Assembly (NCBI GenBank): GCA_017883265.1
Contig: JADGNX010000004.1
Span: 1-48,606, forward strand
Direction: 5' to 3'
Origin: Thermoanaerobaculia bacterium
GTDB lineage: Bacteria > Acidobacteriota > Thermoanaerobaculia > Gp7-AA8
DNA length: 48,606 nucleotides
In this document: positions 38,651 to 41,269 of the stretch, in pieces
Numbering within the stretch: position 1 is the stretch's first letter
How the letters are laid out: every line of letters starts with the position of its first letter
Program-made: the position numbers and the translations under genes
Notes under the pieces: model-generated
What the model was told of the DNA's origin: nothing
The model's input: the letters and a program-made list of their open reading frames with translations, nothing else
The model's database searches: none

Positions 38651-39124
38651 TCACCGCATGCCTTGCTTGATCGCGGCCGCCGTTTCGCGGGCCGCCTCGC
38701 GGGTCTTCTCGCTCTCGCGCTTGTCGTGAAGCTTCTTGCCTCGCACGACGGCGATCTCGGCCTTCGCCCGCCCTTTCCTGAAGTACATGCGGAGGGGAAC
38801 GATAGTCAGCCCCTTCTCGACCACATCTGCGAACAACTTGATCAGCTCGCGCTTATGGAGAAGGAGCTTCCGCGTTCGTTCCGGTTCGTGGTTCTCGCGG
38901 TTGCCGTGGCTGTAGGGAGAGATGTGGAGGCCGAAGAGCAGCGCTTCACCGTTCTTGAAGATCACATAGGCGTCTTTGAGGTTGGCCCGACCGTCCCGCA
39001 GCGACTTGACCTCCGTCCCCGTCAGGACCAGGCCGGCCTCGTGCTTGGAGAGGATGTGGTAGTCGTGGAACGCCTTCTTGTTCGATGCGATGAGGCGTTC
39101 GTCTGGATTGTCCGGCTTCGCCAT
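38651..39124 (-). CDS. smpB: SsrA-binding protein SmpB
   Basis: 157 residues, full length. It binds tmRNA and brings it to stalled ribosomes for trans-translation. The N-terminal ASNKKAFHDYHILSKHEAGLVL, the TEVKSLRDGRANLKDAY block and the basic C-terminal tail (KLHDKRESEKTREA) that enters the ribosome mRNA path are typical. It lies 22 bp downstream of the type II GAPDH gene on the same strand, so they may be cotranscribed. No tmRNA gene is in this window. Confidence 0.97.
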   Translation of the reverse strand: MAKPDNPDERLIASNKKAFHDYHILSKHEAGLVLTGTEVKSLRDGRANLKDAYVIFKNGEALLFGLHISPYSHGNRENHEPERTRKLLLHKRELIKLFADVVEKGLTIVPLRMYFRKGRAKAEIAVVRGKKLHDKRESEKTREAARETAAAIKQGMR

Positions 39125-39146: not shown

Positions 39147-40202
39147 TCAGATTTCCCGGAAGATGTACGGCCGCAGCACCTCGATGTTGTCATCGAGCTT
39201 CTTCGGATCGAGATAACGCAGTGTGGCCGCGACGGATGAGAGAAGCGAGTTGCCGTCCTGCGGCGTGTAGCAGAAGCCGACTACCTTGCGGGAGGAGGGG
39301 ACGGCCAGAGTGGAGATCGGGATGACGGTCGTTGAGAGGATGCGTCCGAAGTAACCGTGGTCGCGGCCGAAGGAGAAGATCTGGTTCGACGACCGCTTGT
39401 TCGTGATGGCCACCCGTGGATTGTTGCGCAGGAGAGCCTTGACCTCTTCCAGCCTCGTCTCCTCGGTCAACTCCAGATCGAACCAGAGGGTGTGCATGTA
39501 CTGGGTGTTGATCTTGATCGCGGACGAGTAGAGGTTCAGCTTCTCGCCGAGGGTGGCAAACAGGTGATAGGAATCGCGTGCGTGGTGCGTCCCGAATTCC
39601 GGATCGTCATGCTTGCCGGCCTCCGGCGCGGCCAGAAAAGATTTGGTGTCGGATACGTCATTGGCCCGGCGCATACAGACGAAGCGTCCGCTCTCCAGGC
39701 CGACCTTTCCGCTGCGCATGGCGATGGTCTGGATGAGGACCGAGATGTTGTGGGTGTTGCATGAAACGATCTGGATGAAGCGGTCGTCAGCATCGATGGC
39801 CTTGTCGTTGATGCCGCGGGCGTACGGCTTGCCGAAGCCGAACTCGGATCCCTGGGCCAGGAAGCCGCGCGGGCCCTTGATCCGATCGTAATACCTGGCC
39901 TTCATGGCGTTGCCTGCGGGAGTGCAGTCGACGACCACAGTGGCGCGGGCCAGAGCCTCCTCGTGCTCGAAGGAGACCCGGTGTCCGAGGGCTTCGAACT
40001 CGCCTCGGGCCTGCTCGTCGACGACCAGCTTGGCTCCCTTGCGGATCAGGTGCTCGACCATGGCCCGATCGTCGGCCTTCGGAGTCCGCTTGTGAAAGGT
40101 CACCTCATCGATGTTCCACTTCTCCTTGAAGTCGGTGAAGAGTCCGATCAGCGGCTCGCCGATGGTGCCCGTGCCCACCACATGAACGATGCTCTTGGCC
40201 AT
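39147..40202 (-). CDS. Type II (archaeal-type) glyceraldehyde-3-phosphate dehydrogenase-like protein
   Basis: 351 residues, with GGGAG upstream of the ATG. The sequence does not match the bacterial GapA form. Instead it shows the archaeal type II features: N-terminal Rossmann GTGTIGEPLIG, VVVDCTPAGNAMK, the catalytic cysteine region IVSCNTHNIS (Cys148, where archaeal enzymes have SCNTTGL), and then RRANDVSD with a following HH-x2-D as in archaea. It would oxidise glyceraldehyde-3-phosphate with NAD(P) to 1,3-bisphosphoglycerate. Such genes are scattered in a few bacterial phyla, and the true substrate should be tested. It precedes smpB. Confidence 0.85.
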   Translation of the reverse strand: MAKSIVHVVGTGTIGEPLIGLFTDFKEKWNIDEVTFHKRTPKADDRAMVEHLIRKGAKLVVDEQARGEFEALGHRVSFEHEEALARATVVVDCTPAGNAMKARYYDRIKGPRGFLAQGSEFGFGKPYARGINDKAIDADDRFIQIVSCNTHNISVLIQTIAMRSGKVGLESGRFVCMRRANDVSDTKSFLAAPEAGKHDDPEFGTHHARDSYHLFATLGEKLNLYSSAIKINTQYMHTLWFDLELTEETRLEEVKALLRNNPRVAITNKRSSNQIFSFGRDHGYFGRILSTTVIPISTLAVPSSRKVVGFCYTPQDGNSLLSSVAATLRYLDPKKLDDNIEVLRPYIFREI

Positions 40203-40420
40203 AGTTGCTCCCGTGAGGCCGGGATTGTAAAGCAGTGATTCCCGATCGTGATCAGCGATTCACTCTGGCCCGCACCCCGCTGCCGTTCGAAACCCGTGGC
40301 GACCGATGGCCGGCTGGTCGAGAGGAAGGAGCCTGAATCACACCCGCGAAAGCATCAAGCCCTCCCGAATCGGCGCCTGGCTTGACCCCTCTGACAGCCC
40401 TTCGCTACAGTGGCCCGCCT
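40203..40420. other. Divergent intergenic region between GAPDH-like gene and accD
   Basis: 218 bp with no gene. It must contain promoters for both directions, but no convincing -35/-10 pair was found by eye. Confidence 0.4.
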
Positions 40421-41269
40421 ATGTCATGGTTCCGGAAGGAGAAGAAGCCGAAAGAGCCGGTCGAGCAGCGCCCCGTCACCATTCCTGAGGGTCTCTGGAT
40501 CAAGTGCGAGGATTGCAAGGAGATCGTCTACCGCAAAGAGGTGGAGCAGAACCTCAATGTCTGCACCCGCTGTGGCTACCACTTCCGCCTGACTGCCGCA
40601 GAGCGCTTCGAGATCCTTTTCGATGACAGCCATTTCAAGGAGTTCGCCGGAAACATCCGCTCGGGCGATCCCCTCGAGTTCCGCGATACGAAGCGCTACC
40701 GCGACCGGCTCAAGGTCTACCAGCAGCGGGTGGGACAGGGGGACGCGGTTCGCTGTGCCGAAGGATCCCTCGAGGCCATGCCGGTCGTCATCTGCGCCAT
40801 GGAGTACGCATTCATGGGCGGCTCCATGGGATCGGTCGTCGGCGAGAAGATCACGCTGGCCGCCGAGCGGAGCGTGGAGAAGAAAGAGCCGCTGATCGTG
40901 GTCTCCTGTTCCGGCGGAGCGCGCATGCAGGAGGGAATCCTCTCGCTCATGCAGATGGCGAAGATCTCCGCTTCGCTTCATCGCCTGGCTGCCGCCGGTC
41001 TGCCCTACATCTCTGTACTCACCGACCCGACGACCGGTGGAGTCACGGCCTCGTATGCCATGCTGGGCGATCTGAACATCGCAGAGCCGAAGGCCCTCAT
41101 TGGCTTTGCCGGTCCCCGTGTCATCGAGCAGACCATTCGCCAGACGCTGCCCGAAGGCTTCCAGCGCTCGGAGTTTCTCGTCGAGCACGGAATGGTCGAC
41201 ATCATCACCCCGCGGGCTGAGATGAAGCCAACCATCGGCCGTTTTCTCCGCATGTTCAACGCGCACTAA
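40421..41269 (+). CDS. accD: Acetyl-CoA carboxylase carboxyltransferase subunit beta
   Basis: 282 residues from the ATG at 40421. It forms, with AccA, the carboxyltransferase that makes malonyl-CoA for fatty acid synthesis. The N-terminal zinc ribbon is complete (CEDC near residue 28 and CTRC near 47). The crotonase-like core has MEYAFMGGSMGSVVGEKI, VVSCSGGARMQEGI, and LTDPTTGGVTASYAMLGD, the glycine-rich acyl-CoA site. It is followed after 7 bp by folC, a frequent gene pair. Confidence 0.97.
   Translation: MSWFRKEKKPKEPVEQRPVTIPEGLWIKCEDCKEIVYRKEVEQNLNVCTRCGYHFRLTAAERFEILFDDSHFKEFAGNIRSGDPLEFRDTKRYRDRLKVYQQRVGQGDAVRCAEGSLEAMPVVICAMEYAFMGGSMGSVVGEKITLAAERSVEKKEPLIVVSCSGGARMQEGILSLMQMAKISASLHRLAAAGLPYISVLTDPTTGGVTASYAMLGDLNIAEPKALIGFAGPRVIEQTIRQTLPEGFQRSEFLVEHGMVDIITPRAEMKPTIGRFLRMFNAH

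Follow-up and report, generated by a model that had tools for sequence, protein, structure and literature searches.

Introduction

Glyceraldehyde-3-phosphate dehydrogenase (GAPDH) is conventionally seen as comprising two phosphorylating types. Type I enzymes (GapA, GapB) are usually reversible, and Bacillus subtilis GapB, a functional analogue of the enzyme proposed here, is an NADP-dependent gluconeogenic GAPDH. Archaeal type II GAPDH, for which several structures are available (PDB 1b7g, 1cf2, 2czc, 2yyy), combines a GxGxxG motif with DCTP, an SCNT motif bearing the catalytic cysteine, RRxxD, HHxxD and an MH histidine. Haloarchaea harbor both types side by side and use gapII for gluconeogenesis and gapI for glycolysis (PMC10817205). 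Bona fide type II GAPDHs, with an SCNTTS motif, also exist in Bacteria, for instance in Acidobacteriota (L127-L132) and on a plasmid of Croceicoccus marinus (L134), where a phosphoenolpyruvate synthase gene lies nearby. A tblastn search of plasmids returned just two weak matches, both to type II GAPDH.

The window analyzed here is a stretch of 48,606 nucleotides from a Thermoanaerobaculia bacterium (contig JADGNX010000004.1). A sequence-only reading had described one of its genes as an archaeal-type (type II) GAPDH beside smpB, possibly gained horizontally and possibly gluconeogenic. We find that this gene represents a separate bacterial family of type-II-GAPDH-like enzymes, on which a literature search found nothing.

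Results

The gene and its locus

The open reading frame and the GTGTIG, DCTPAG, SCNT and HHARD motifs of the sequence-only reading are all present, and so is the adjacent smpB (Table 1). The reading frame is far beyond chance, as orthologues sharing 51-81% identity occur in 70 of the 297 genomes sampled from the phylum, its AlphaFold model reaches a pLDDT of 92, and dN (0.14-0.19) is far below dS (0.84-0.94), which gives a dN/dS of about 0.16-0.22 and denotes purifying selection.

Table 1. Features of the type-II-GAPDH-like gene and of its two neighbors in the window.
Feature	Position	Strand	Remarks
Type-II-GAPDH-like dehydrogenase gene	39147..40202	minus	ATG start, 351 aa
Rossmann glycine-rich motif GTGTIG, residues 10-15	40158..40175	minus	Gly10, Thr11, Gly12, Thr13 and Gly15 invariant in 151 members, a set whose selection pattern took in part of this motif
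Lys38-Arg39-Thr40, directly after strand β2	40083..40091	minus	Lys38 in 151/151, Arg39 in 138/151; candidate NADP(H) 2'-phosphate recognition
DCTPAG, residues 92-97	39912..39929	minus	DCTP common to archaeal and bacterial type II GAPDH
SCNTHN, residues 147-152	39747..39764	minus	Predicted catalytic Cys148; His151-Asn152 where type II GAPDH has Thr-Gly/Ser
Arg178-Arg179	39666..39671	minus	151/151; counterpart of type II RRxxD by alignment, candidate phosphate site
HHARD, residues 206-210	39573..39587	minus	Counterpart of archaeal HHxxD by alignment
His237 (MH, residues 236-237)	39492..39494	minus	151/151; counterpart of the MH histidine of archaeal type II GAPDH by alignment
smpB	38651..39124	minus	NF003843, 209 bits; 22 bp downstream of the gene, same strand
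accD	40382..41269	plus	TIGR00515, 407 bits; divergent upstream neighbor

We infer no functional link between the gene and smpB or accD. This neighborhood is kept only within the taxonomic family of the window and thus gives no functional clue; the locus has no gluconeogenic neighbors. Elsewhere, the genome of the window encodes a GlpX fructose-bisphosphatase, and no match to isocitrate lyase was found in it. In close relatives (L048-L055), the gene points away from smpB and shares the direction of accD, the opposite of the arrangement in the window, which suggests an inversion of this single gene at its original site. A scan of the window locus revealed no flanking inverted repeat that explains the inversion, and promoter and terminator scans added no information.

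Distant homology to type II GAPDH

The best NCBIfam match of the protein was the type II GAPDH model NF003251, with 84.9 bits for a cut-off of 185, and TIGR01546 matched with 60.8 bits for a cut-off of 232.9. Three bona fide bacterial type II GAPDHs scored 440-454 and 320-358 bits with these respective models. Overall, identity to type II GAPDH is about 20-29%, with scores of 61-90 bits against the cut-offs of 185 and 232.9. Pfam returned Gp_dh_C (20.1 bits, cut-off 24.4) and Semialdhyde_dh, both sub-threshold, and nothing else. The asd_B aspartate-semialdehyde dehydrogenase models gave 14.5-15.9 bits, short of their cut-offs of 324 and 223.

The archaeal GAPDHs were nevertheless the sole solved structures found with significance by sequence (PDB E-value of 1e-16 with the family profile), and hhalign aligned the family to bona fide bacterial type II GAPDHs with 98.7% probability and an E-value of 2.5e-16. 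The AlphaFold model, built from 52 family members, has a pTM of 0.90. A Foldseek search with this model placed archaeal type II GAPDH chains at all of ranks 1 to 6, with TMq values of 0.77-0.81. Next came type I GAPDH and erythrose-4-phosphate dehydrogenase, which share the superfamily fold and the Cys/His chemistry, but at TM values of about 0.6-0.66. Unlike type I GAPDH, the protein has no match to the N-terminal domain PF00044 and lacks the SCTTN motif, which bears out the absence of bacterial GapA features reported from the sequence.

The protein shares a remote ancestry and its predicted fold with type II GAPDH and, by the curated bit-score cut-offs, falls outside that family. Of the earlier assignment to archaeal type II GAPDH, the homology and the catalytic residues stand, whereas membership does not. 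An IQ-TREE phylogeny, with bacterial type II GAPDH as the only outgroup, agrees: rather than clustering with known type II sequences, the family formed its own 100/100 clade, with branch lengths of 5.6 and 4.4 substitutions per site between it and bacterial type II GAPDH. Inside this clade, the sequences mostly group by phylum or class. Judged by sequence, this is a separate, so far unnamed bacterial family of type-II-GAPDH-like enzymes.

Active site and candidate cofactor residues

Conservation was assessed in 151 deduplicated family members, in which Lys38, Arg178, Arg179, Asp210 and His237 are invariant and His206 and His207 nearly so. Cys148, Thr150, His151 and Asn152 are also invariant, in a set that was picked on SCxTHN and so provides no independent evidence for those residues. 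They are equally constant in two alignments made without our motif filter, one of which drew mostly on a scan that had VSCNTHN among its two patterns. The histidine after CNT, seen earlier as a variation near the active site, is indeed present, yet His-Asn at this position is a family-invariant feature and not a private variation of the window genome. Within the Rossmann motif, Ile14 is replaced by Val in 4 of the 151 members.

Three constant features depart from type II GAPDH. The family has GTGTIGEP where type II has GYGxIGKR, HN after CNT where type II has T(G/S), and near the C-terminus a TPQDGN motif whose Gln315, Asp316, Gly317 and Asn318 are invariant in the 151 members; here the PE(N/T)xDAIRA of type II becomes TPQDGNSLLSSV. 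Because of the His-Asn pair and this last replacement, the phosphate or substrate pocket may differ from that of type II GAPDH.

In the AlphaFold model, strand β2 spans residues 33 to 37. The invariant Lys38 and the usual Arg39-Thr40 that follow it suggest a preference for NADP(H), whereas the bona fide bacterial type II GAPDHs read here carry an acidic residue at this place (VSDV). The latter, which also have SHQxPD, belong to the same fold family but are a different gene. Both kinds are found together in two genomes (G062, G114) and apparently in a third (G090), where the match is weak. A more distant relative, at L272 and L273 (genomes G657 and G615), has SCNTHA in place of SCNTHN and scores about 190 bits with the family profile; for the copy at L273, neither NCBIfam nor Pfam gave a match.

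Distribution and coexistence with type I GAPDH

A pattern scan of genome contigs detected at least 553 relatives, and the family is found in Acidobacteriota, Actinomycetota (Acidimicrobiia), Planctomycetota and Myxococcota. Orthologues occur throughout the taxonomic family, class and phylum of the window. The gene is present in 54 of 148 genomes of the class to which G327 belongs, assumed to be Acidimicrobiia (31 of the 54 are of 0.7-1.1 Mb), and in 34 of 246 genomes of the G340 phylum, assumed to be Planctomycetota. In the G339 phylum, assumed to be Myxococcota, 237 genomes yielded about 11 close and two distant relatives.

Following the suggestion that a classical gapA be sought, we found one on another contig of the window genome (G000:C373, PF00044, 124 bits), which rules out that the gene is the sole GAPDH of the organism. 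Type I GAPDH was likewise present in 22/22 carriers of one set and 33/35 of another; the two assemblies that gave no match (G439, G474) may be incomplete. We also considered that genomes of about 1 Mb might lack type I GAPDH, which would prove the function by necessity. These genomes retain type I, and most small genomes of the 35-carrier set have two such genes in tandem. In several Acidimicrobiia of about 1 Mb (L196-L198 and others), the tandem pairs a canonical GapA with a divergent type I paralogue (VGFGRIGRD...); each of these genomes thereby has three GAPDH-fold genes.

Gene neighborhoods in other carriers

Outside the window, the gene is repeatedly found next to genes of central carbon metabolism. 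In the Acidimicrobiia clade, aceB-aceA lies directly upstream on the same strand in 16 of 28 loci, encoding malate synthase A (774 bits) and isocitrate lyase (754 bits), and in five loci glpX (GlpX fructose-bisphosphatase, 348 bits) sits between this pair and the gene. A divergent regulator, weakly RamB-like, is present in 12 loci of the clade. In Acidimicrobiia of about 1 Mb, a pyruvate phosphate dikinase (PPDK) gene (1247 bits) is adjacent and divergent in all six loci read. Two of these small genomes (L220, L221) have aceA-aceB after the gene, the reverse of the order in larger genomes, and the coordinates place aceA likewise in five more. In another (L217), a glycerate kinase gene comes next after the gene. 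In a genome of the Myxococcota group (G709), a class I fructose-bisphosphatase gene (451 bits) starts 15 bp downstream.

Different surroundings were observed in other Acidobacteriota. Of 12 such loci read, hprK is the divergent neighbor in seven, and the rapZ/EIIA/EI genes adjoin in three more; etfBA or fabF lies on the opposite side in many. In L228-L238, a block of hprK, rapZ, EIIA and PTS EI genes lies by the gene, again with etfBA or fabF opposite, and may be a carbon-control locus. In Thermoanaerobaculia-type loci (L057-L126), the gene is followed by an RNase-Z-like metallo-β-lactamase gene in 15 cases and by an RlmD-like methyltransferase gene in 26. Across the phylum, isocitrate lyase tends to co-occur with the family: it was matched in 48 of the 70 carriers and in 47 of the 227 other genomes (odds ratio 8.4, kinship ignored).

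Discussion

To our knowledge, gluconeogenesis has just one step that uses an NAD(P)-linked aldehyde dehydrogenase, that of GAPDH. Genes for two unrelated fructose-bisphosphatases, for PPDK and for the glyoxylate shunt are linked to the gene across distinct lineages and in differing orders, and this linkage points to gluconeogenesis. We therefore favor, at a probability of roughly 60%, a Cys/His-dependent gluconeogenic GAPDH, probably NADP(H)-linked, that works beside GapA; a gluconeogenic role was already among the options of the sequence-only reading and remains plausible. The enzyme would combine the type II GAPDH fold with Cys/His-dependent aldehyde dehydrogenase chemistry. It would catalyze the reductive step from 1,3-bisphosphoglycerate to glyceraldehyde 3-phosphate with NADPH, while the classical type I GapA alongside would serve glycolysis. 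This reading draws on the fold, the homology, Cys148 and His237, the arginine pair, HHxxD, the coexistence with type I GAPDH and the repeated glyoxylate-shunt and gluconeogenic linkage in other carriers; the GlpX of the window genome and the haloarchaeal division of labor are in keeping with it. From these we infer the actual substrate, the cofactor preference, the direction in vivo and the role in the organism of the window, whose locus has no telling neighbors. Counting against a GAPDH role are the great sequence distance from any characterized enzyme and the type I GAPDH already there, often with a second paralogue, and, for the organism of the window, the missing gluconeogenic neighbors and isocitrate lyase match.

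The sequence distance and the nearly constant presence of type I GAPDH lend some weight to a different substrate, a reading that is rather unlikely but not negligible. The type II fold and cysteine chemistry would be kept, and the enzyme would act during growth on acetate or fatty acids on another aldehyde or acyl phosphate of C2-C4 carbon metabolism, such as erythrose 4-phosphate or a glyoxylate-derived semialdehyde. The chief arguments for another aldehyde are the family-specific HN after CNT and the changed motif near the C-terminus; the very long branch, the glycerate kinase gene of L217 and the retention of the gene as a third GAPDH-fold gene by genomes of about 1 Mb can be read in the same way. 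On the other hand, the arginine pair and HHxxD of the type II active site are retained, and the PPDK, GlpX and class I fructose-bisphosphatase neighbors flank the gluconeogenic GAPDH step. A broader proposal, which we put forward tentatively, is that the family forms a third GAPDH-like class, neither type I nor type II, serving either gluconeogenesis with NADPH or a novel step on a C3/C4 acyl phosphate or aldehyde that joins the glyoxylate shunt to sugar synthesis.

The divergent hprK-rapZ-PTS neighborhood of many Acidobacteriota might instead suggest that the GAPDH-fold protein is a regulator or moonlights and has scarcely any dehydrogenase activity or none, acting for instance as a sensor of redox or carbon status linked to HprK, RapZ or the PTS. 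The strict conservation of the catalytic Cys, the His and the Rossmann motif, together with the enzyme gene clusters that surround the gene in Acidimicrobiia and G709, makes this improbable. As for origin, archaeal type II GAPDH is both the nearest solved structure and the nearest named family, as would be expected of a true type II enzyme gained horizontally by the lineage of the window. We nevertheless consider such a gain very improbable and abandon the earlier suggestion, given that the gene sits in a bacterial clade of its own that is widely distributed. A recent archaeal acquisition is disfavored by scores far under both curated type II cut-offs, by the 100/100 clade of the bacterial sequences surveyed, and by orthologues that extend across the family, class and phylum of the window and three further phyla.

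The family is found in about a quarter of the sampled Acidobacteriota and over a third of the sampled Acidimicrobiia, and is kept even in genomes of about 1 Mb. Since its members score under the curated Pfam and NCBIfam cut-offs, metabolic reconstructions probably overlook it. If the functional inference holds, its gluconeogenic setting resembles that of haloarchaeal gapII (PMC10817205). Many uncultured soil and aquatic bacteria would then use one fold for the glycolytic and another for the gluconeogenic GAPDH, much like haloarchaea.
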